Positions 46,839 through 56,389 of a stretch of 64,000 nt of DNA are shown here, piece by piece. The position numbers and the translations under genes were made by a program. The stretch is from positions 62,001-126,000 of the forward strand of contig NZ_PCOU01000003.1 of assembly GCF_002979455.1 (NCBI RefSeq), in the 5' to 3' direction. Position 1 is the first letter of the stretch, and the number at the start of each line of letters is the position of its first letter. The notes below the pieces were generated by a model, which was not told the DNA's origin, did no database searches, and saw only the letters and a program-made list of their open reading frames with translations. This DNA is from Chryseobacterium sp. MYb7. GTDB taxonomy: Bacteria; Bacteroidota; Bacteroidia; Flavobacteriales; Weeksellaceae.

Positions 46839-47384
46839 TTAAAAGTTTTTTTCTTTAAACAAAGGTGCATTCTCGTCTTTTTCAGAAAGAATGGCATCTT
46901 TCTCATCAACTTTCCAGTCTATACCAAGATCCGGATCATTGAATTTTACACTGCCTTCTGATTCTTTATTATAAAAGTTGTCACATTTATAGGAAAACAC
47001 AGCGTTAGTACTCAGTACAGAAAATCCATGTCCAAAACCTCTTGGTACATATAGCTGAAGTTTATTTTCTGCAGTAAGCTCAATTCCGAACCACTTTCCG
47101 AATGTAGGAGAATCTTCTCTAAGATCTACCGCTACATCCCATACGCTGCCTTCAAGACAAGATACCAGTTTTGCCTGTGCATGTTCGCCTTTCTGAAGGT
47201 GCAGCCCTCTAAGTACTCCATAAGAAGATTTGGAAATATTATCCTGTACAAAGTGCCCGTTCATTCCTGTAAGTTCTTCGAATCTTTTTTCGTTGTATTT
47301 TTCAAAGAAGTAGCCTCTGTCATCTTCAAATACGGTAGGCTCTATGATATAACAATCTTTAAGCGGGGTTTCTTTAATTTTCAT
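46839..47384 (-). CDS. rfbC: dTDP-4-dehydrorhamnose 3,5-epimerase
   Basis: The 181-residue cupin enzyme epimerises dTDP-4-keto-6-deoxyglucose on the way to dTDP-L-rhamnose. Visible motifs are DDRGYFFEKYNEKRF, VLRGLHLQ with the catalytic His, SVWDVAVDLREDSPTFGKW and PRGFGHGFSVLS. The length is standard. It is the last gene of the polysaccharide locus. The other rhamnose genes (rfbA, rfbB, rfbD) are not in the window, so they must lie elsewhere. Confidence 0.93.
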   Translation of the reverse strand: MKIKETPLKDCYIIEPTVFEDDRGYFFEKYNEKRFEELTGMNGHFVQDNISKSSYGVLRGLHLQKGEHAQAKLVSCLEGSVWDVAVDLREDSPTFGKWFGIELTAENKLQLYVPRGFGHGFSVLSTNAVFSYKCDNFYNKESEGSVKFNDPDLGIDWKVDEKDAILSEKDENAPLFKEKNF

Positions 47385-47398
47385 AATAGTAATAAATT

Positions 47399-47968
47399 CT
47401 ATTTCAATATGGTTTTCACTGTTTTAAACAGAATCATGATATCATTTTTGAAAGACATTGTTTCAAAATAATCAAGATTCATTTTTACTTTATTTGGGAA
47501 AAGTATTTCATCATTATATGCTAAGGGATCCTTCTGGTTTTTCAGAAGTTCTTCTTCATTTCTGTATTTTATGCTTGCTTCACAAGTTAATCCTGGTTTC
47601 AACTCCAGTACTTTTCTATCTTCTCCTGTAAGTTTATCATAATATCCTTCAATATCAGGCCTGGGACCCACAAAACTCATTTCTCCTTTCAAGACATTAA
47701 ACAATTGTGGAAGTTCATCAAATTTAAGCTTCCTAAGAGTCTGCCCTGTTCTGGAGCATGTTCTCTTTCTTTCATGAATTGTTTTAAACTTAAAAATGGT
47801 AAAAGGTTTTCCGTACTGCCCAATCCGTGTTTGGAGAAAAATACCATTAGAAGATGTATCCAGGCTTGCAATTATAAACAAAATGATCAGTATTGGCAAA
47901 AGCAGCAATATAACTATTACTGCTAAAATAAAATCAAAAATTATTTTCCAATTTTTATACTGATTCAT
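47399..47968 (-). CDS. Second initiating-type sugar transferase
   Basis: The 189-residue membrane enzyme belongs to the bacterial sugar-transferase family (WbaP/PglC type). It has a single N-terminal hydrophobic segment (about 10-32) and then FKFKTI, KFDELPQLFNVLKGEMSFVGPRP and LKPGLTCEASIKYRNEEE. Such enzymes transfer a sugar phosphate to undecaprenyl phosphate. Another member is encoded at 55784-56389, and one glycan should need only one initiator. This copy departs from the PglC C-terminus (no GWAQ), so it may act on another sugar or pathway. Confidence 0.83.
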   Translation of the reverse strand: MNQYKNWKIIFDFILAVIVILLLLPILIILFIIASLDTSSNGIFLQTRIGQYGKPFTIFKFKTIHERKRTCSRTGQTLRKLKFDELPQLFNVLKGEMSFVGPRPDIEGYYDKLTGEDRKVLELKPGLTCEASIKYRNEEELLKNQKDPLAYNDEILFPNKVKMNLDYFETMSFKNDIMILFKTVKTILK

Positions 47969-47982
47969 TCAATGTAATGCTA

Positions 47983-49119
47983 TTAAACTTTAAAGTAAGT
48001 ATGAATTACTTTTGTTATTCTTTCTCTGTCATCATCGGACAAATTAGAGCCTGATGGAAGACATAATCCGTTATCAAAAAGTTTTTCTGAGATATTTCCT
48101 CCATAGTAAGGAGCAGACTCAAAAACTGGCTGCAGATGCATTGGCTTCCATAGTGGTCTTGATTCGATATTATCTTCTAAAAATGCATGTCTTAAATCTT
48201 CCCTGTTCTTTCCTGTAGTTTCAGGATCAATAATTATTGCAGACAGCCAATGATTTGAATAAAAATCACTATTTGGTTCTGTAAATACTGTTACACCTTC
48301 AATATTTTTGAAAAGATCAACATAAAAATCGTGCATTGCTCTGCGGGCAGCAACTCTGTCTTTAAGTACTTCCATTTGTCCTCTTCCTATTCCCGCCACA
48401 ATATTACTCATTCTGTAGTTGAATCCAATATGTGAATGCTGATAATGAGGAGCATTGTCCCTTGCTTGAGTGGATAAGAAAACGATTTTATCTTTATCTT
48501 CTTTGGTATGGCATACTAATGCACCACCACCTGAAGTCGTGATAATTTTATTTCCATTAAAGCTTAGCACTCCGAAACGTCCGAATGTTCCACATGCCTG
48601 TCCTTTATAAGTGGATCCCAAAGCTTCTGCAGCATCTTCAATTAAATCTATTTCAAATTCTTTTGCAACAGCCATAATTTCGTCCATTTTTGCCGGCATT
48701 CCGTATAAATGAACAACAATGATAGCTTTTGGCTTTTTCCCTTTTTGAATTCTGTCTTCAACAGCTTCTCTTAAGGCTTTAGGACACATGTTCCATGTAT
48801 CATTTTCGCTGTCTACAAAAACAGGATCGGCACCGCAATACGCTATTGGGTTGGCAGAGGCTGAAAATGTCATAGACTGACAAATTACTTCATCTCCGTG
48901 CTGAACACCAGCTTCAATTAAAGCAAGATGAAGAGCTGCTGTTCCTGCTGATAAAGCAGCAACCTTTACGTCTTTATTTAAGAATTTTTCTAAGTCTTCT
49001 TCAAAACCGTTAACGTTCGGGCCTAATGGAGCGATCCAATTTTCATCAAAAGCTTCATTGATATATTTTTGTTCGTTACCTCCCATATGCGGTGAGGATA
49101 ACCAGATTTTATTTGACAT
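47983..49119 (-). CDS. DegT/DnrJ/EryC1/StrS-type sugar aminotransferase
   Basis: The 378-residue PLP enzyme puts an amino group on a nucleotide-linked keto-sugar. The PLP lysine is Lys191 in LSFNGNKIITTSGGGAL. The SAGTAALHLAL region binds phosphate, and EDAAEALGSTYKG carries the family Asp. SFNGNKI and HAGMNYR-like GFNYRMSN point to the PglE/LegC group that makes 4-amino sugars such as UDP-4-amino-FucNAc/QuiNAc. It sits 4 bases after the PglD-type acetyltransferase gene, the usual bacillosamine pair. Confidence 0.88.
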   Translation of the reverse strand: MSNKIWLSSPHMGGNEQKYINEAFDENWIAPLGPNVNGFEEDLEKFLNKDVKVAALSAGTAALHLALIEAGVQHGDEVICQSMTFSASANPIAYCGADPVFVDSENDTWNMCPKALREAVEDRIQKGKKPKAIIVVHLYGMPAKMDEIMAVAKEFEIDLIEDAAEALGSTYKGQACGTFGRFGVLSFNGNKIITTSGGGALVCHTKEDKDKIVFLSTQARDNAPHYQHSHIGFNYRMSNIVAGIGRGQMEVLKDRVAARRAMHDFYVDLFKNIEGVTVFTEPNSDFYSNHWLSAIIIDPETTGKNREDLRHAFLEDNIESRPLWKPMHLQPVFESAPYYGGNISEKLFDNGLCLPSGSNLSDDDRERITKVIHTYFKV

Positions 49120-49123
49120 ATTA

Positions 49124-49783
49124 TTATGATCTTATGATAGTTACTTTTTCTTTAAACCGGTAAAAAACAGTTTCATTATCAGAAACATTTTTATCAATAA
49201 CCATTCCTGCCTGAATGGTATTCTCAGAACCAATTGTTATTGAAGGAATAACTGTACTTCTAATTCCAAAAAAATTTTTGTTCCCTATTTTTACATTGCC
49301 TGCTAAGCCTGCAGTAGATAAAAAATTATAGTCACCTATTTCGCAATCATGACTAATAAAGCTATATGAAGTAACTAAATTAAAATCACCTATTTTACAA
49401 TTGGGACCAATAACCGAATTTGGATATATTATATTTCCTTTTCCAAGTTTAGCCGATTTTGAAATAACAACTGACGGGTGGATAATTGTTGGGAAATCTA
49501 ATTTTCCCAAATCTAATTTTTCTACAATACTTTCTTTACCTGAAGGATTCGCAAATCCAAAAATATAAGAATATTGCTCTGAAAATTCATGCTTCGCAAT
49601 TGGACCTAAAAAGCGGCCTTCAAAACCATACTTTTCAGATTTTATCTTAAAATCATCTTCATTATCATTTAGAAAACCATAGATTTCAAATGCATTAGAA
49701 GGATTTTGATTTTGGATATCTTCCAAATAAGAAATTACTTCTGAAGCTACAGCTCCACTTCCTATAAAAATTATTGGTTTCAT
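49124..49783 (-). CDS. PglD/NeuD-type sugar N/O-acyltransferase
   Basis: The 219-residue protein has an N-terminal Rossmann-like domain (PIIFIGSGAVASEVISYLED, 1-80) and a C-terminal left-handed beta-helix of hexapeptide repeats (about 95-215). The likely catalytic histidine is in FISHDCEIGDYNF. Family members acetylate the 4-amino group of UDP-sugars (PglD) or sialic acid (NeuD). It lies between an MBL hydrolase (4-base overlap) and the aminotransferase. The unusual acyl-building genes next to it raise the possibility that it uses an acyl-carrier donor instead of acetyl-CoA; that is inference. Confidence 0.83.
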   Translation of the reverse strand: MKPIIFIGSGAVASEVISYLEDIQNQNPSNAFEIYGFLNDNEDDFKIKSEKYGFEGRFLGPIAKHEFSEQYSYIFGFANPSGKESIVEKLDLGKLDFPTIIHPSVVISKSAKLGKGNIIYPNSVIGPNCKIGDFNLVTSYSFISHDCEIGDYNFLSTAGLAGNVKIGNKNFFGIRSTVIPSITIGSENTIQAGMVIDKNVSDNETVFYRFKEKVTIIRS

Positions 49784-50391
49784 ATTGTCTTATTATCTTC
49801 AAAAATATACTTTTCACCATGTCCTGGAAAAATAGTAACCCCTTGAAGCATGTTTTTATGTTTTTCTATACTTTGCTGATATGTCTTTTTGGAACCTGTA
49901 GGTAAATTGGTAACAATTCTTGTCCCTTGTAAAAGAAAATCTCCAGAAAAAAAGAAATCTCCAATTTTCAGACTTATTGAGGAGTCTGTATGCCCAGGTG
50001 TATTATATATTTCAAACTCATAATCAATCATTTTAAAGTAACCTTCCTCAACAATAATCTCAGATTTATCTACTACTAACTTGTTTTGATTATGAAATAT
50101 CGCCAGATTTTTTTTAGGATTTGGCAATCTTTCTGATGTTTTATGAGATGAAATTACCTTAACATTTGGAAAATTTTCTCTTAAAAAGTTCACTCCTAAA
50201 ATATGGTCAAAATGTTCATGAGTGAGGAAAATAAACTTTAAATCCAAATTATTATCATATAAATAATCTGTAATTCTCTTGTCATTTTCAGTACCAGGAT
50301 CAATAATTAAAGCCTCTTGATTTTGAGGATTAGCTAAAATATAGGATATTGAATCAATAGGTGAATTTTCAAATAATTGAATAGTCAGCAT
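49780..50391 (-). CDS. Metallo-beta-lactamase-fold hydrolase (glyoxalase II-like), possible thioesterase
   Basis: The 203-residue protein carries the complete metal site: THEHFDH, TPGHT, SGDFL (Asp) and PGHGE, in glyoxalase-II order. No C-terminal substrate-binding helices of true GloB are present, so it is a short single-domain type. Such enzymes often hydrolyse thioesters. It overlaps the SDR gene by 1 base and the acetyltransferase gene by 4. Within an acyl-carrier cluster the most sensible guess is a thioesterase that releases or proofreads acyl chains. Confidence 0.85.
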   Translation of the reverse strand: MLTIQLFENSPIDSISYILANPQNQEALIIDPGTENDKRITDYLYDNNLDLKFIFLTHEHFDHILGVNFLRENFPNVKVISSHKTSERLPNPKKNLAIFHNQNKLVVDKSEIIVEEGYFKMIDYEFEIYNTPGHTDSSISLKIGDFFFSGDFLLQGTRIVTNLPTGSKKTYQQSIEKHKNMLQGVTIFPGHGEKYIFEDNKTI

Positions 50392-51134
50392 TATCCTGTA
50401 ATATTAATACTTCTTCCTCCATCAACAGTTAATTGCTGCCCCGTAATCCATCTTGATTGTTCTGAAAGTAAAAAGCTAACAGCTTCTGCAATATCATTTG
50501 GTAAGCCAATCCCTAAAGGGTATTGTGCAGACATACGCTGACTTACTTCTTCATTTTCAAAAATTGACTTTGTCATTTCTGTAATTACAGCACCTGGTAA
50601 AACAGAATTTATTCTAACTTTAGGAGCTAACTCAACAGCTAAGCTTCTCATTAATCCATCCAACGCTGCTTTAGAAGAGCCGTAAGTACTCATTGCTTTT
50701 GCACCACGATTACTAATATTGCTAGAAATTAAAACTACATTATTCAATGCTGAATTATTTGCTTTCTTATTTGTCAGCAGCTTTATAATGATATTGGCTG
50801 AAAATACATTGGTTTTGAAAGTTTCCAACATCAAATCCTGACTAACCAACTTTAGTGGAACCATTTTCATAAAACCTGCACAATGTACAAATTTCTGAAC
50901 TGCCAATTGATTCTCAGAAAGGAAATGCAAAATATTTTTCTCTAAATTATCAATATCAGAAAGATCCAAAGGCAAAATATATACTGAATTTTCCGTTGAA
51001 CATTTTGATTTTAAAGCTTCTAATTTCTCTGTATTTCTTCCGCTGAGAATAATGTCATATTGCTGGGACAATGTTATTGCTAACGCCTCCCCAATTCCTG
51101 CTGTAGCTCCTGTTAAAAAAAGTGTTTCTTTCAT
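50391..51134 (-). CDS. Short-chain dehydrogenase/reductase, FabG-like (second)
   Basis: The 247-residue reductase has the cofactor motif TGATAGIGEA (8-17), a SSNISNRG serine region and the catalytic YGSSK (about 156-160). SVLPGAV and LSEQSRWITGQQLTVDGG close the fold as in FabG proteins. It lies 6 bases after another SDR gene, and together they sit behind a ketoacyl synthase and two carrier proteins. The likely task is reducing a beta-keto thioester to the 3-hydroxy form, or interconverting hydroxyl stereochemistry. Confidence 0.87.
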   Translation of the reverse strand: MKETLFLTGATAGIGEALAITLSQQYDIILSGRNTEKLEALKSKCSTENSVYILPLDLSDIDNLEKNILHFLSENQLAVQKFVHCAGFMKMVPLKLVSQDLMLETFKTNVFSANIIIKLLTNKKANNSALNNVVLISSNISNRGAKAMSTYGSSKAALDGLMRSLAVELAPKVRINSVLPGAVITEMTKSIFENEEVSQRMSAQYPLGIGLPNDIAEAVSFLLSEQSRWITGQQLTVDGGRSINITG

Positions 51135-51140
51135 ATAAAA

Positions 51141-51902
51141 TTATTGTGCTGTAAAACCACCATCTACCGATAAAATACTTCCGGTTACCCATTTGCTCAT
51201 ATCTGATAATAAATAGGTAATTCCATAAGCAATATCTTCTGCCTCGCCCAATCCCAAAGGATGAAGTTGGTTTAATCTATCATTATACTCATTATCAAAA
51301 GACCCGGAAACATTATCTAACATCTCGGTTTTGATAAACCCGGGAGCTACACAATTCACACGAATATGTTTTGGTGCCAGTTCTATTGCCAATGACTTGG
51401 TAATACCGTGCAAAGCTGATTTGGACATTGCATAGGCTACATTTGCAGCAGAGCCTACTAATCCATAAACTGATGAAATAAAGACTACAGATGGATTTTC
51501 CAATTTATAGTTTTTATGCTTTGTAAATACTTTCGATAATTCTAGAGCAGCAACTGTATTTATTTTCAACACTTTCTCAACAGTATCTGTATTTAAAGTC
51601 TTTAATGGTGAAACATAAGGAATTCCGGCAATGTGTACCATCCCGTCCAAAGCACCAAAAGATTTTATCTTATCACCTACAGTATTTTTAATTCCATGAA
51701 TGTCTGATAAATCTATAGCAAGATAATCACATTTCTCATTACAGTCTTTCAAAGTTTCTTTCAACGAAGCTTCATTGATATCCAATAAAAGAAGCTTTGC
51801 ATTTAATGAAGATAAATACAAAGCTGTTGCTTTTCCAATTCCGGAACCTGCTCCTGTGATAAGGATTGATTTTTCAGAAAAGTCTAAAAAATTTTTATGC
51901 AT
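51141..51902 (-). CDS. Short-chain dehydrogenase/reductase, FabG-like (first)
   Basis: The 253-residue protein shows TGAGSGIGKA (16-25), an NTVAALELSK region, FISSVYGLVG with the catalytic Ser and the catalytic YAMSK. VNCVAPGFIKTEML and GSILSVDGGFTAQ complete the FabG-like pattern. It begins 8 bases inside the end of the second carrier-protein gene, a tight coupling. Sequence alone does not show whether it reduces a ketoacyl-ACP or a sugar. The carrier and KASIII neighbours favour the former. Confidence 0.87.
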   Translation of the reverse strand: MHKNFLDFSEKSILITGAGSGIGKATALYLSSLNAKLLLLDINEASLKETLKDCNEKCDYLAIDLSDIHGIKNTVGDKIKSFGALDGMVHIAGIPYVSPLKTLNTDTVEKVLKINTVAALELSKVFTKHKNYKLENPSVVFISSVYGLVGSAANVAYAMSKSALHGITKSLAIELAPKHIRVNCVAPGFIKTEMLDNVSGSFDNEYNDRLNQLHPLGLGEAEDIAYGITYLLSDMSKWVTGSILSVDGGFTAQ

Positions 51903-52116
51903 TTTGTCTGCTTAGAATTAATTGATGTAAGCCTTCAATTGTTTTAGCATCTGCAATCTCTGCATTGGTTAATGAAACTTGATACTCATCATCTGCCAAA
52001 GCAATAATTGATAGTGTAGTTAAAGAATCCCAAGCTTCAAAAGAAGTAAGTTCATCAGAAGGATTTACACTATCCACCTCCATTATTTCTGTCATTTGTT
52101 CTAAGAAATCTTCCAT
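51895..52116 (-). CDS. Acyl carrier protein 2
   Basis: The 73-residue acidic protein has the phosphopantetheine site in AWDSLTTLSII (Ser31) and the four-helix acidic profile of carrier proteins. Its WDSL motif resembles carriers used by dedicated polyketide/NRPS-like systems more than the housekeeping AcpP (DSLDTVEL). It lies between the KASIII and SDR genes, overlapping the SDR gene by 8 bases. A different carrier is encoded just upstream of KASIII, so the block has two. Confidence 0.85.
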   Translation of the reverse strand: MEDFLEQMTEIMEVDSVNPSDELTSFEAWDSLTTLSIIALADDEYQVSLTNAEIADAKTIEGLHQLILSRQNA

Positions 52117-52134
52117 AATTATATATTTTATTTT

Positions 52135-53202
52135 TTATTTATAAATAAGTTTGCAAAAGTCTAAATTTCCCAATTTCATAATAATAGTTCCCCATGTAAG
52201 TCCTACTCCGAAACCAGAAAAACATACTTTTAATTCTGAGTTTTCTAATTGTTCTCCTAAATTATAAGTAGTAACCACCGGAATAGTTACACCACTGGAG
52301 TTTCCAAAATTTTCTACTACATTGGATGGTAACTTTTCTCTGCTTACTCCAATTTTATCGGCTAATTTTTGTAGCATAAACCTGTTAGGCTGATGAAATA
52401 AGAAATAATCAATAGCTTCTACACTATCATTAGAGTTTTCCACAATATTTTTTATTTGTTCCGGAACCCTTGTCTGAACAAAATTAAATACATTATCTCC
52501 CTGCATTACCAAATGATTCTTACTTCTTTTATTCCCAAAAGTATCTTCATAAAGTTCGGCAGTTTCTTCAGTAATTGGCATTCTTGCACCGCCAGCAGGA
52601 ATATTAAGTGCCATTGCCCCACTTCCATCCATTCTTATTTCGCCAACTATAGACGTATTTTCATCCGTATTTTCAATAATTGTGATTGCTGCAGCATCTC
52701 CAATTAATGGATTGCTATTCCTGTCGAATTTTGAAACTTTCGGACTTAAAACATCTGCATTACACAAAACAACTTTGTTAACGCCTTCATTATTAAGCAA
52801 CATAAAAGCTTGCTGTAATCCTACAACAAAACCAGCACACCCCTGATTGATATCCAGACAGAATACACGTTCATCCAGCTCATATTTACCATGCAGTAAA
52901 TTACTTGTTGGCGGCATAATAAATTCTGGACTTTGGCTTACAAAAAGTAAAGCATCAATAGAATTTTTATCTAATAAATGATTATCGAATAAATAATCTA
53001 AGCCTGCCGCTACCAAATCAAAACTTGTAGTAGATTCTTCAGCTACAACTCTTTTGGATTTAAAGCCCATTGCAGCTTTTAGTTTTAAAGATTTGGCTTC
53101 AGAAAAGCTATAATTCTGCATCTCATCTTCAAACATAACTTCGTTTGAAGGCAAGATACTCAGTATACCTGTAATTTTTTTATTTGAAAAATTAATTTTC
53201 AT
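52135..53202 (-). CDS. 3-oxoacyl-ACP synthase III (FabH-like)
   Basis: The 355-residue enzyme has the full KASIII triad: Cys122 (DINQGCAGFV), His270 (FLFHQPNRF) and Asn301 (NFGNSSGVTIPV). It should condense a starter acyl thioester with malonyl-ACP to give a beta-ketoacyl-ACP. Compared with housekeeping FabH (about 320-330 residues) it is longer, and the motif is HQPN rather than HQAN. Both features are shared by KASIII-like enzymes of glycan-modification clusters. It overlaps the first carrier gene by a single base (TAATG), and the second carrier follows. It is very unlikely to be the cell's main FabH. Confidence 0.88.
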   Translation of the reverse strand: MKINFSNKKITGILSILPSNEVMFEDEMQNYSFSEAKSLKLKAAMGFKSKRVVAEESTTSFDLVAAGLDYLFDNHLLDKNSIDALLFVSQSPEFIMPPTSNLLHGKYELDERVFCLDINQGCAGFVVGLQQAFMLLNNEGVNKVVLCNADVLSPKVSKFDRNSNPLIGDAAAITIIENTDENTSIVGEIRMDGSGAMALNIPAGGARMPITEETAELYEDTFGNKRSKNHLVMQGDNVFNFVQTRVPEQIKNIVENSNDSVEAIDYFLFHQPNRFMLQKLADKIGVSREKLPSNVVENFGNSSGVTIPVVTTYNLGEQLENSELKVCFSGFGVGLTWGTIIMKLGNLDFCKLIYK

Positions 53203-53432
53203 TATTGTGCACCGTTCTTTTTAAGCAATGTCTCTATAGCATCTACAGACTCGAAATTCTCTGGTAAAATATCTGTACCATCTATTGAAATTGCAAAAGC
53301 CTCATCAAGTTCCGTTACCAATGTAATTAAATCAAAGGAGTCTAACATACCTTGAGAAATAAAGTTTGTTTCTGTTCCGAAATCGAACTCAGGACGAATT
53401 CCGTTTAATATTTCAATAATTTGGTTCTTCAT
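53202..53432 (-). CDS. Acyl carrier protein 1
   Basis: The 76-residue acidic protein carries MLDSFDLITLVTEL with Ser32 as the phosphopantetheine site. The DSFD version is common in D-alanyl or amino-acid carriers and in carriers paired with stand-alone ligases. It overlaps the end of the GNAT gene by 20 bases and the KASIII start by 1. The adenylation gene lies just upstream of the GNAT gene. A model in which the ligase loads this carrier fits, but is not proved. Confidence 0.85.
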   Translation of the reverse strand: MKNQIIEILNGIRPEFDFGTETNFISQGMLDSFDLITLVTELDEAFAISIDGTDILPENFESVDAIETLLKKNGAQ

Positions 53433-54243
53433 ATTTTTTATCTTTATTTATTAAAATCAAATTGTGCATGTCTTCTTCAACAAACCCAAAATGCTTATAT
53501 CTTTTTATAGCGTTTTCATTACTTTCAATTACCCAAAACAGCTCTCTCTTTACATTTTCACCGATATTGAAAAATAATTGAATAAGTTTTGATCCAATTT
53601 TTTTGTCGCGATAATTTGGATGTACAAACCAGTAGCGTAAGTGGCTGGTGATTCCGTGAGACTCAAAAACAATAAAACCCTGAATTTCATCATTATCCGA
53701 GAAATAATAGGTATTTTTATTATTAATAAACCCGTCTATCTCTTCCATTGTAGGAATTCGCTCAACAAATTTATCAAAATATTTTTTGTAAAGTTTCTGA
53801 AATTCCTTTTTCTTATCTACAGTGAGCAAATGAATATTCTCAAAATCTACTTCTTCTATCTCGTTTCTTATTTTACTCATTCTTACCATAGAAGAATATT
53901 TATAAAACCCATTTTGAAGGAAAGTTTCTTTAATATTTTGTAAATACTTAGAGCTTCCTGCGATTTCTACTGAAATATCTGCTGTCAGTTTTCGAATTTC
54001 GTTATTTAAAAAGAACTTTATTTCTGTAATGTCCGAAGCAATAAAATATAATCTCGTAAACCCATCATCACCTGTCAGCAAAAAACATGCTTTTTCTGTT
54101 TTAAATACCTGAATTTTATTTTCAGATAACAACTGATTAAATTGCAATTCAGTCATAAAGAAATTGGTTTTCATTTCTTTAGATTTTAACCTAAACAGTT
54201 CAGATTTTATATCGGAATAAGTAAAATGCTCAACGTGCTCCAT
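53413..54243 (-). CDS. GNAT-family acyltransferase with an extra N-terminal domain
   Basis: The 276-residue protein has a C-terminal GNAT fold (about 130-270) with the acyl-CoA/acyl-carrier pyrophosphate loop in WFVHPNYRDKKIGSKL (205-220) and a downstream WVIESNENAIKRYKHFGF. Residues 1-125 form an additional region of mixed alpha/beta character, possibly a second, degenerate GNAT fold. It lies 4 bases after the adenylation gene and overlaps the carrier gene by 20. A likely job is to transfer a group to or from an amino function, for instance a carrier-bound amino acid or the amino sugar. Confidence 0.8.
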   Translation of the reverse strand: MEHVEHFTYSDIKSELFRLKSKEMKTNFFMTELQFNQLLSENKIQVFKTEKACFLLTGDDGFTRLYFIASDITEIKFFLNNEIRKLTADISVEIAGSSKYLQNIKETFLQNGFYKYSSMVRMSKIRNEIEEVDFENIHLLTVDKKKEFQKLYKKYFDKFVERIPTMEEIDGFINNKNTYYFSDNDEIQGFIVFESHGITSHLRYWFVHPNYRDKKIGSKLIQLFFNIGENVKRELFWVIESNENAIKRYKHFGFVEEDMHNLILINKDKKYEEPNY

Positions 54244-54247
54244 TTTC

Positions 54248-55774
54248 TTATGCGTTAGCTTGTTGATTTAAAAATGCTCTGTCAATTTTACCATTGGGAT
54301 TTCTAGGCATTTCATCATAACGTATATAGACTGTTGGAATCATATATTTTGGCAGATTTGCTAACAATTCTTTTCTGAACACAGCAGGTTCTATATCTGT
54401 TGGGTTTTCGTAATATAAAACAATTTCCTTGTTGTCACGATTATAAACACAACATGCATTTTTAGCAATTTTCAGGGTATTTACAACAATATGCTCTATT
54501 TCACCCATCTCGATTCTATACCCTTGATGTTTGATTAATGTATCTTTTCGACCTTTGAAAATAATTTCGTTTCTTTCGTTAAGAGCAACTATATCTCCTG
54601 TTCTGTAAATAACTTCCGGATAATGTGTATTCAAAGGGTTTTGAACAAAAGCAGCGGCTGTTTTCTCAGGATTATTATAATAGCCTAAAGCTAATGAGCT
54701 TCCTCTTACACATAACTCGCCTTCTTCACCCTTTTCTGCCAATTTATCTTCATCAGTTATGATTAAGACATCCGTATTTCTATAAGGAATACCAATTGGA
54801 AGTGGCTCGTTATCTTCAAAATCTCTATCAACAATGAAGTATGTACAATCTAGAGTAATCTCAATAGGTCCGTAAAGATTTGCAAACTTTGTATGGGTAA
54901 GTGTTTTTTTCCAATAATTAAATTGTTTTGTAGGAAAAACCTCTCCTGCAAACCAAACCAACTTCAAGGTATCAAGATTTACTTTTGTAAGTAAATCCAT
55001 ATTGGCGATGTTTACCATTATAGTAGGAACCCAGAAGATAAAACTTACTTTGGTTCTTTGCATTTCCTCTAATATTTTTATAGGAAATGCTGCCATATTT
55101 TCTGGTAAAACCACAATACAGCTTCCTTTAGAAATCAACATGCAAAGTTCATAGCTAAAAATATCAAAAATTACAGGTGACAAAGACCCAATAACTTCGT
55201 TTTCTGAAAACTGAAAAATTTCATCAGAAACCTCAATAAAATCTACAAAACTTCTATGATTAAGTGCAACGGATTTTGGTGTTCCCGTAGAGCCTGAAGT
55301 ATTGATTACACAAGACATATCAGTATCAATACTTCTCAGTTGTAATCTTTCTAATAATTGCTTATCCTTTGATTGGTTATCAAAATCTAATTCGTCAATA
55401 AGAATGATTTTATCTGCAGCATAAATTCCCTCCAGTCCTTTTAGCAAATTTTTAGTTGTAATGATAAACTCCGGCTGAACCAAATCCAAAATATTCTCAA
55501 CACGCTGTGAAGGACTTTTTATATCTAAATTAAGATAAGCATTTCCTGTAATCATTACGCCTAAATCTACTATAACACAGTTAATAGATTTTGGAAGATA
55601 TACAGCAATAGGTTTATTAATTACATCAGATTTTTCAAGAATCAAATTCCCTAAAATACAAATGTTTTTATATAATTGATTAAATGTAATTTCTTTATCA
55701 TTTTCGATAACAGCAGTTATATTTCCTTTTTGTTTTACTGTTTCGATCAAGTATTCGATTAAGTTTCTTTTCAT
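54248..55774 (-). CDS. Stand-alone adenylation enzyme (amino-acid- or acyl-carrier ligase, DltA-like)
   Basis: The 508-residue protein has the full A-domain set: P-loop NTSGSTGTPKS (158-168), SYEL-type A4 region with Asp204 in VIFDIFSYEL, NLYGPIE (299-305), YRTGD (390-394), GRKDTLIKHQGYRIE (408-422) and the catalytic Lys496 in NPNGKID. Asp204 aligns with the residue that holds the alpha-amino group in NRPS and DltA A-domains, which points to an amino-acid substrate. No carrier domain is fused, so it must load a separate one, most likely the product of 53202-53432. It lies 9 bases after the PglC-type gene. Confidence 0.85.
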   Translation of the reverse strand: MKRNLIEYLIETVKQKGNITAVIENDKEITFNQLYKNICILGNLILEKSDVINKPIAVYLPKSINCVIVDLGVMITGNAYLNLDIKSPSQRVENILDLVQPEFIITTKNLLKGLEGIYAADKIILIDELDFDNQSKDKQLLERLQLRSIDTDMSCVINTSGSTGTPKSVALNHRSFVDFIEVSDEIFQFSENEVIGSLSPVIFDIFSYELCMLISKGSCIVVLPENMAAFPIKILEEMQRTKVSFIFWVPTIMVNIANMDLLTKVNLDTLKLVWFAGEVFPTKQFNYWKKTLTHTKFANLYGPIEITLDCTYFIVDRDFEDNEPLPIGIPYRNTDVLIITDEDKLAEKGEEGELCVRGSSLALGYYNNPEKTAAAFVQNPLNTHYPEVIYRTGDIVALNERNEIIFKGRKDTLIKHQGYRIEMGEIEHIVVNTLKIAKNACCVYNRDNKEIVLYYENPTDIEPAVFRKELLANLPKYMIPTVYIRYDEMPRNPNGKIDRAFLNQQANA

Positions 55775-55783
55775 ACTATTTTT

Positions 55784-56389
55784 TTAATTATTCCCATTAA
55801 ACCCTTCCATTGTAACCTGGCCTTCTTGAGAAATTCCTTCTCTGATAATTACTTTTTTAATGGTTAAGAAATATATTTTGATGTCCAAAATTAAGGATAT
55901 ATTATCCACATACCAAACATCTAATTCAAATTTGTGCATCCATGAAATAGCATTTCTACCATTAATTTGTGCCCAACCAGTAATTCCTGGACGAACTTCG
56001 TGACGACGCATTTGAACTTCATTATAAAGAGGCAAATATTGTGGTAATAAAGGCCTTGGTCCAATTAAAGCCATATCTCCTTTTAACACATTTATCAATT
56101 GTGGTATTTCATCCAAAGAAGTTTTTCTGACAAATGCTCCAATGGGTGTTAGGCGTTCTGCATCAGATAATAAATTGCCCTTCACATCTTTCTTATCATT
56201 CATTGTTTTGAACTTGATAATTTTAAAAATCTTTCCGTTCAAACCTGGTCTTGCCTGAAAAAAAAATGGTTTTCCTTCATTTACAAAATACAATCCTATA
56301 CTTACGAATATAAATACGGGTGAAAGTAGAACCAATCCAATGAGTGCTGCTAAGAAATCAAAGACGCGTTTGAAAAAATTTTTATACAT
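55784..56389 (-). CDS. PglC-type initiating sugar transferase
   Basis: The 201-residue monotopic membrane enzyme has an N-terminal re-entrant hydrophobic helix (10-32) and the family motifs [16 protein letters not shown]-like [36 protein letters not shown], and [19 protein letters not shown]. These match PglC, which moves diNAc-bacillosamine phosphate (or a related 4-amino sugar) to undecaprenyl phosphate. It is the best candidate for starting the repeat unit. The aminotransferase and PglD-type genes at 47983-49783 could supply its substrate; the 4,6-dehydratase is not in the window. Confidence 0.88.

Follow-up and report, generated by a model that had tools for sequence, protein, structure and literature searches.

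A candidate hybrid amino-acid and ketide assembly line in a surface-polysaccharide locus of Chryseobacterium

The DNA stretch discussed here (the window) comprises 64,000 nucleotides of a contig of Chryseobacterium sp. MYb7 and carries, on its minus strand, a cassette of eight complete, co-directional open reading frames (ORFs) at positions 49780-55774. The cassette is flanked by a gene for a PglC-like transferase and by PglD/PglE-like genes, and may encode a small assembly line that builds an acyl group for a surface sugar. An original prediction, made from the sequence alone, had described an eight-gene acyl-carrier module at this place and on this strand; all eight ORFs were found, and their Pfam/NCBIfam matches agree with the labels given then. 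The module had also been placed between PglC-type and PglD/PglE-type genes within a surface-polysaccharide locus, which is borne out by the flanking genes, and had been described as packed with overlaps or gaps under 25 bases, in agreement with junctions of -20 to +18 bases (from PglC to PglE: 9, 4, -20, -1, 18, -8, 6, -1, -4 and 4).

The cassette starts with a stand-alone amino-acid adenylation enzyme (A-domain; 54248..55774, 508 amino acids, AMP-binding 2.4e-55) with the specificity code DIYFWALLDK. Next comes an N-acyltransferase with a tandem GNAT fold (53413..54243, GNAT 3.8e-11), the proposed capper of the amino group of an aminoacyl-carrier, followed by carrier protein 1 (53202..53432; PP-binding 1.9e-5; AmcB and DltC models are matched weakly, at scores well under their cut-offs), the putative aminoacyl carrier of the A-domain. 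A β-ketoacyl synthase III (KASIII; 52135..53202; N domain 1.1e-13, C domain 6.3e-18), which belongs to a clade linked to carrier 1, would accept the chain from that carrier and extend it onto carrier 2. Carrier protein 2 (51895..52116; PP-binding 9.7e-4, at 19.8 bits slightly below the cut-off of 20.8) is of a type found in cassettes for other acyl groups (R-groups) that lack an A-domain, and would hold both malonyl and the finished chain. Two short-chain dehydrogenases/reductases (SDRs) follow, assigned by family match and motifs: SDR 1 (51141..51902), a FabG-like ketoreductase, and SDR 2 (50391..51134), an accessory reductase or dehydrogenase. The last gene encodes a glyoxalase-II-like hydrolase of the metallo-β-lactamase (MBL) fold (49780..50391, Lactamase_B 2.8e-24), a putative editing thioesterase with an accessory role. 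All eight genes lie on the minus strand. The catalytic residues had been described as intact, which holds for the A-domain (TSGSTGTPKS, YRTGD and the NGKIDR lysine), the KASIII (Cys-His-Asn), both carriers (Ser), the SDRs (Gly-rich motif, Ser and YxxxK) and the MBL enzyme (HxHxDH), and fails for the GNAT, where Lys takes the place of the first Gly of the cofactor loop.

The flanking genes, also on the minus strand, complete the picture of a polysaccharide locus. Directly after the cassette lies a left-handed β-helix acyltransferase of the PglD/VioB type (49124..49783) that has the expected His and hexapeptide repeats (1.4e-13), and that would transfer the finished group to a 4-amino sugar. It scores 144.6 bits over residues 4-207 against a subfamily cut-off of 160.8 for TIGR03570 and is, by its sequence, PglD-like rather than a clear member of that subfamily. 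It is followed by a LegC/PglE-like DegT aminotransferase (47983..49119; TIGR04181 394.7 bits, cut-off 420), which would form the 4-amino sugar nucleotide, and, by family match, by a second Bac_transf protein (47399..47968) and an RfbC-like epimerase (46839..47384). On the other side of the cassette, the PglC-like initiating sugar-phosphate transferase (55784..56389) is likewise assigned to Bac_transf by family match. The rest of the polysaccharide set consists of a Wzx-like flippase, glycosyltransferases, a UDP-sugar dehydrogenase, a Gfo/Idh oxidoreductase and an EpsG-like polymerase that scores slightly below the Pfam cut-off. A Wzc-like gene crosses the window end, beyond which lie genes for a Wza-like export protein and, at about 2.5 kb, a PF02719 dehydratase (PglF/CapD kind). 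Judging from known Pgl chemistry, the dehydratase, the PglE-like aminotransferase and the PglD-like acyltransferase together fit the synthesis and acylation of a UDP-2-acetamido-4-amino-4,6-dideoxy sugar.

The cassette is inherited as a unit. Among 320 genomes of the family (the window's own included), nine carry the KASIII at 74-100% identity, with other listed matches (E up to 1e-40) at 41% or less, and all nine retain the eight genes in the same order and on the same strand. This conservation is more than chance. The nearest named carriers of the cassette belong to Chryseobacterium; Chryseobacterium sp. SN22 and C. vrystaatense LMG 22846 both have it. Five of the nine genomes, the window's included, have the cassette between PglC and the PglD/aminotransferase pair (the contig of L032 stops after PglD). 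In the other four (L035-L038), the cassette lies in a different polysaccharide locus: on its other side there are a DegT aminotransferase and a Gfo oxidoreductase (in L036 also a hexapeptide transferase), and the MBL gene is not followed by a PglD/aminotransferase pair. An AAC(3)-like acyltransferase (PF02522, 1.3e-30) immediately precedes the A-domain in L036, as one does in L063 and L085 (10-11 bases). In genome G073, a second, more divergent PglD-like gene sits between PglD and the aminotransferase (L033:6215-6817). In wider samples, the GNAT was found in 3 of 395 genomes of the order and 2 of 345 of the phylum, with the window's own counted in both.

The site itself exchanges its contents. 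RimO, RfbC and aminotransferase genes flank it in the window, L040 and L042-L044; in L040 and L044 they are 91-98% identical to those of the window site, yet other cassettes lie there, and more distant strains (L042, L043 and L046) also hold other cassettes at the window's own site. Twelve such R-group cassettes (L039-L050) showed no A-domain match (tblastn E 1e-4, at least 30% of the query). All twelve encode one or two KASIIIs with an SDR and all twelve a carrier, and nine encode a PglD-like gene, to which a separate scan adds L040. By its sequence, the window cassette is of this kind, with a KASIII, an R-group-type carrier, a reductase and a PglD-like acyltransferase at the exchange site. 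It departs from it in having an amino-acid A-domain, together with carrier 1 and the GNAT. One of the other cassettes at this site (L040:6309-9814, in G023) has, next to its two KASIIIs, its SDR and its PglD-like gene, the genes for a Rieske oxygenase (PF00848/PF00355) and for a flavin/2Fe-2S reductase; this content suggests that the acyl group made there is oxidised.

Relatives of the A-domain were collected by an alignment scan of named genome contigs. This gave 400 confirmed relatives, of which the best 80 were kept; many are contigs of metagenome-assembled genomes (MAGs), and several are cut short. A neighbourhood search had been suggested as a check on the module, with PglC among the expected neighbours. 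Within 5 kb of the A-domain, a KASIII is found in 56 of the 80 loci, a carrier in 59, a GNAT in 48, an SDR in 51 and an MBL gene in 14, and a PglC-like gene in seven loci only. PglD-like genes (25) and DegT aminotransferases (21) are more frequent. KASIII, carrier and GNAT occur jointly in 37 loci, and in 35 of 80 together with an SDR. The hidden Markov models that called most module families were themselves seeded with the window proteins and extended on these loci, and the GNAT and SDR counts therefore include looser matches; before iteration, the window GNAT was matched by 37 of 1553 ORFs (phmmer E < 1e-8). KASIIIs become sparser away from the A-domain, from 0.160 per kb at 0-2 kb to 0.009 at 8-10 kb. 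Across 53 loci, A-domain distances and KASIII distances are correlated (r 0.49), a value reached in none of 2000 permutations. In a small control set, the neighbourhoods of five other adenylation enzymes, the models for KASIII, carrier 1, carrier 2, SDR1 and MBL had no match (E 1e-4), and those for GNAT and PglD had one each.

The gene set is spread widely and in varying order. A genome of another family of the same phylum (G904, locus L060) has all module members plus PglC, PglD and the aminotransferase in one rearranged block, with module proteins at 24-40% identity and both SDRs matching SDR1 best. In the class of G938 (L097, a Rhodanobacter record), the A-domain matches at E 1e-85 or better in 3 of 321 sampled genomes, G938 included. 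Among plasmids, there was one A-domain match (E up to 1e-70), in an unannotated stretch from Paenibacillus cellulosilyticus. In Neobacillus drentensis, an AcpS-like 4'-phosphopantetheinyl transferase (L115:12960-13343, 8.2e-17) directly follows the module KASIII, which fits a need to activate the module carriers. Elsewhere (L113:12199-13932), an FkbH-like protein (7.2e-82) and an AAC(3)-like acyltransferase lie beside GNAT and carrier, with no KASIII match in the locus; this module perhaps makes a glyceryl-derived group.

The two carriers are of different types. All 16 carriers from the twelve cassettes without an A-domain favour the carrier-2 model, with 25-69 bits against none to 20 for carrier 1, which indicates that carrier 1 belongs with the A-domain. 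From their sequences, carrier 2 looks like the type that holds finished chains, and carrier 1 like the partner of the A-domain. The KASIIIs divide in the same way. In a tree of 96 rows (two were dropped as identical), all 41 KASIIIs directly after carrier 1 fall in one clade of 55 rows (support 97/94) that contains none of 16 R-group KASIIIs and no FabH. Row labels place this clade in 11 phyla, with several rows from MAGs. Of 80 KASIIIs counted up to 7 kb from an A-domain, 40 have carrier 1 as the gene directly before them. Conversely, of 54 loci with a clade KASIII, membership being typed by hand from the tree, 51 have an A-domain, and in 32 an acyltransferase of the PglD- or AAC(3)-like kind is close by. 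The Cys-His-Asn triad is retained in all 42 carrier-1-linked KASIIIs, that of the window included; FabH Ala246 is replaced by Pro in 40 of them, and Phe157, a pocket residue of FabH, by Ile or Val in 35. FabH residues W32 and R36 are lost in 42/42, and as all 17 R-group KASIIIs share this loss, these coenzyme A (CoA)-clamp residues do not discriminate between models and lend no support to ours. The best NCBIfam match of the window KASIII is NF009519 (PRK12880-type) at 200.7 bits, under the equivalog cut-off of 436. Fatty-acid housekeeping was considered as a function and rejected, E. coli FabH being on a long branch outside the clade.

Between the A-domain and the KASIII, gene content is exchanged as well. 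In 82 rows, the slot after the A-domain holds a GNAT (33), carrier 1 directly (13), a formyltransferase (5: L088, L134, L135, L136 and L140) or other genes (17), and in 14 nothing was found; L036 and L064 are apparently one stretch and are counted twice, here as among the 42 KASIIIs. One of the 13 carrier-1 rows, from Bacteroides luti, is a formyltransferase fused to carrier 1 that lies between A-domain and KASIII (L102:11539-12639). L088 and L102 combine a formyltransferase with a clade KASIII and no GNAT match; L123, a looser case, also lacks a GNAT match and has its formyltransferase after the clade KASIII, 4 kb from the A-domain. In these loci, no GNAT is seen that could join a KASIII product to the amino acid. 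L069, L112 and L121 encode a clade KASIII plus a KASIII of the R-group type that follows a GNAT and an SDR, which argues that the two types are not interchangeable; in L116, only an R-group-type KASIII, again following GNAT and SDR, is present before the contig end. The window GNAT itself was modelled with a mean pLDDT of 73.7 and a pTM of 0.56, giving a tandem GNAT fold that is most similar to VipF and MAB_4324, then to mycothiol synthase and others, at TM-scores of about 0.6.

The predicted amino-acid-type ligase proved to be of the NRPS (nonribosomal peptide synthetase)/DltA class by sequence and fold. The nearest solved structures by sequence are the amino-acid A-domains LgrA (best PDB match), PheA and TycA, with DltA further down, and Foldseek assigns the AlphaFold model (mean pLDDT 77.7) to the same amino-acid A-domain class. 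The DltA model TIGR01734 is matched at 235.5 bits, under its equivalog cut-off of 559.85. Core motifs and the Asp235 and Lys517 equivalents are present in the window enzyme, and the residue aligned with the α-amino-binding Asp (the Asp235 equivalent) is Asp in 80 of 80 relatives. Three types of specificity code, DNLF(F/L)ALVDK (26), DI(Y/F)FWALLDK (20) and DILF(F/L)ALVDK (10), account for 56 of the 80; the other 24 diverge more, as does L060 (DAKLMSLSVK). As a calibration, the code mapping was applied to E. coli EntF, a protein with a serine-activating annotation, and returned DVWHFSLVDK, which we take to be the serine code. With this EntF code, the window code agrees at four of ten positions and DNLFFALVDK at six of ten, an overlap from which we would weakly guess at a small neutral, Ala- or Ser-like substrate.

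We consider it probable that the module provides a group containing an amino acid for the acylation of a glycan. More specifically, the sequence evidence leads us to propose that the cassette is a small hybrid NRPS/type II ketide assembly line for an N-acyl decoration of a 4-amino sugar in the surface polysaccharide, with its steps in the order set out below; the balance for and against this proposal is even. The A-domain would activate a small neutral L-α-amino acid (Ala- or Ser-like) and load it onto carrier 1, where the GNAT would cap the amino group, acetyl being the simplest cap. The dedicated KASIII would then take the capped aminoacyl group from carrier 1 and condense it with malonyl on carrier 2, after which one SDR would reduce the β-keto group and the second might introduce a further redox change. 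Stalled thioesters may be hydrolysed by the MBL enzyme. Finally, PglD would take the finished group off carrier 2 and attach it to the UDP-2-acetamido-4-amino sugar supplied by the PglF/PglE-like enzymes, at the 4-amino position, making the predicted product an N-acyl γ-amino-β-hydroxy ('statine-like') acyl group. The exact order of these steps might equally be right or wrong. There is a precedent for such chemistry in macrolactam pathways, where N-protected aminoacyl starters on acyl carrier proteins (ACPs) are described to precede ketide extension (PMC11284099). Simple acetylation of the sugar was rejected as an explanation, as it would not require a KASIII, two carriers and an A-domain.

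The original prediction had instead suggested a longer, mixed group, for example a hydroxyacyl-aminoacyl one. Its amino-acid-containing acyl group for a glycan stands; the hydroxyacyl-aminoacyl part is not settled and constitutes the main rival to our proposal. In that scheme, KASIII and SDR convert acetyl-CoA and malonyl into a 3-hydroxyacyl group carried on carrier 2; the GNAT links this group to the amino group of the aminoacyl residue on carrier 1, and PglD transfers the resulting N-(3-hydroxyacyl)aminoacyl group to the sugar. It accounts for all core genes and both carriers, and the R-group-type KASIIIs that follow GNAT and SDR in L069, L112, L116 and L121 could supply such a cap there. 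The substitution of a formyltransferase for the GNAT in two or three clade-KASIII loci fits this scheme poorly, as do the eight of 54 loci with neither enzyme and the separation of the carrier-1-linked KASIII clade from the R-group KASIIIs. The carrier types, the separate KASIII clade and the slot contents, with a few relatives that have a formyltransferase where others have the GNAT, fit better with an amino acid that is first capped and then chain-extended, and we regard the hydroxyacyl-aminoacyl scheme as rather unlikely. Its product class is nevertheless known on 4-amino sugars, namely N-[(S)-3-hydroxybutanoyl]-D-alanyl on Qui4N in E. coli O123 (PMC10609480, PMC3210612). A further example is the 3-hydroxy-2,3-dimethyl-5-oxoprolyl group of Plesiomonas shigelloides O74, which might derive from alanine and acetoacetyl. 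In E. coli genomes, a 3,880-base query that runs from carrier 2 to the A-domain found no match at blastn sensitivity (E up to 1e-3), a search that a remote O123 homologue may have escaped; A-domain DNA of L149, a hit from the class sample, gave no match there either, and no O-antigen locus of solved structure was linked. Loci with both KASIIIs might combine a hydroxyacyl cap with chain extension. L069:10001-20353, a double KASIII set followed by MBL, PglD, aminotransferase and PglC, is an arrangement hinting at such a mixed product.

Besides this known product class, several other observations count against our scheme. Sugar amines are common substrates of GNATs and formyltransferases too, and the exchange in the slot could therefore concern the sugar amine instead of the aminoacyl group. 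The formyltransferase cases are few, and that of L102 is matched better by methionyl-tRNA and sugar formyltransferases than by LgrA. Eight of the 54 clade-KASIII loci show no enzyme that could provide a cap. No KASIII is seen within 5 kb in 24 of the 80 A-domain loci; where at least 4 kb is available to either side (58 loci), 44 have one and 14 show none. In L060, the KASIII lies upstream of the A-domain and outside the clade. The usual GNAT motif is R/Q-x-x-G-x-G/A, and the corresponding loop of the window enzyme, YRDKKIG, is non-canonical. Lastly, we know of no chain-extended aminoacyl group on a bacterial polysaccharide.

The halves of the cassette might also work apart, the A-domain, carrier 1 and GNAT making an N-acetylaminoacyl group and the KASIII, carrier 2 and SDRs a hydroxyacyl group for separate sugar amines. 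Each half can exist alone: L134, L136 and L140 have an A-domain, a formyltransferase and a carrier with no KASIII match, L135 an A-domain and formyltransferase only, and the R-group cassettes a KASIII and carrier 2 without an A-domain. L033, moreover, has two PglD-like genes. A single PglD-like transferase adjoins the window cassette, however, and the position of carrier 1 directly before half of the KASIIIs, together with the tie of the clade KASIII to the A-domain, makes two decorations improbable. Still less probable is a diffusible or lipid product, with the module merely happening to sit in a polysaccharide locus. A KASIII and an A-domain also occur together in the prodiginine pathway. 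Macrolactam starter sets likewise belong to secondary metabolism (PMC11284099); the scarcity of PglC-like initiators near the A-domain loci points the same way. Such a product would leave the position of the window cassette between PglC and PglD/PglE without explanation, as well as the PglD- or AAC(3)-like acyltransferases near most clade-KASIII loci and the presence of other R-group cassettes at the same chromosomal site.

Carrier-made R-groups on surface sugars and acyl-aminoacyl sugars are both already known. In Flavobacterium psychrophilum, whose 3,5-dihydroxyhexanoyl group had been cited as a precedent, the genes for this group (wfpC-wfpG) have been proposed, including a PglD homologue thought to move it from a carrier to UDP-Qui2NAc4N (PMC6519341). 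Like the window, wfpC-wfpG comprises ketoacyl-ACP synthases, a carrier, a reductase and a PglD homologue beside PglE-type genes, and synthesis in the manner of a type II fatty acid synthase is proposed there; the likeness is one of gene content. The window adds a stand-alone A-domain with its own carrier and a GNAT, none of which is mentioned for wfp in the consulted parts of that source (PMC6519341). Starter loading of the vicenistatin type shares with our scheme a stand-alone A-enzyme with an ACP and an aminoacyl thioester that is N-protected before ketide extension, but, as described, uses β-amino acids, a modular polyketide synthase and a second A-enzyme for protection rather than a GNAT, resulting in macrolactam antibiotics (PMC11284099). 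Group II glycosylation islands for Aeromonas polar flagellin likewise encode an ACP, a 3-oxoacyl-ACP reductase and an AMP-dependent synthetase in a glycan locus; these come with LuxC/LuxE, and no KASIII-linked amino-acid A-domain is mentioned in the consulted portion of the report (PMC7874193). N-(3-hydroxybutanoyl)-alanyl-Qui4N of E. coli O123 and Salmonella O58, like related acyl-aminoacyl sugars, resembles the predicted group in being an amino-acid-containing N-acyl group on a 4-amino-4,6-dideoxy sugar (PMC10609480, PMC3210612). It differs in bond order, which here is predicted to arise by chain extension on the amino acid. In the initiation of linear gramicidin synthesis by LgrA, an amino acid is formylated on a carrier by a formyltransferase, A-domain and carrier. 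No PDB sequence matches the window A-domain better than LgrA, whose formyl domain also appears in the match list for the L102 fusion; unlike the window, which has a GNAT instead of a formyltransferase, LgrA is a single NRPS polypeptide with a peptide product. A comparable set, with an amino-acid-activating enzyme, FabH2 and ACPs, may also be present in the flagellar locus of Campylobacter jejuni.

The combination had been said to be possibly undescribed. For a hydroxyacyl-aminoacyl group on a 4-amino sugar this does not hold, given the E. coli O123 product; for the genes, no description of an A-domain/KASIII module in glycan loci was found among the papers listed by searches of open-access text, judged by titles and the beginnings of abstracts. 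More broadly, we tentatively suggest, with somewhat more doubt than confidence, that these loci represent a small NRPS/ketide assembly line, so far undescribed, which consists of an A-domain, an N-capping enzyme, carriers 1 and 2, a dedicated KASIII and an SDR. It would be reshuffled across phyla, would make amino-acid-primed, N-capped γ-amino-β-hydroxy acyl groups and would export them as N-acyl decorations of surface sugars, with an exchangeable cap (acyl or formyl) and an exchangeable final transferase (PglD- or AAC(3)-like). Serotype and antibody recognition can be determined by the small N-acyl groups that amino sugars carry. In F. psychrophilum, lipopolysaccharide antigenicity is reported to be associated with R-group genes, to a degree that varies between antisera (PMC6519341). 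If the suggestion is correct, the gene sets found in many phyla would encode an overlooked class of surface decorations made by hybrid amino-acid/ketide chemistry, and such decorations would become predictable from genomes.

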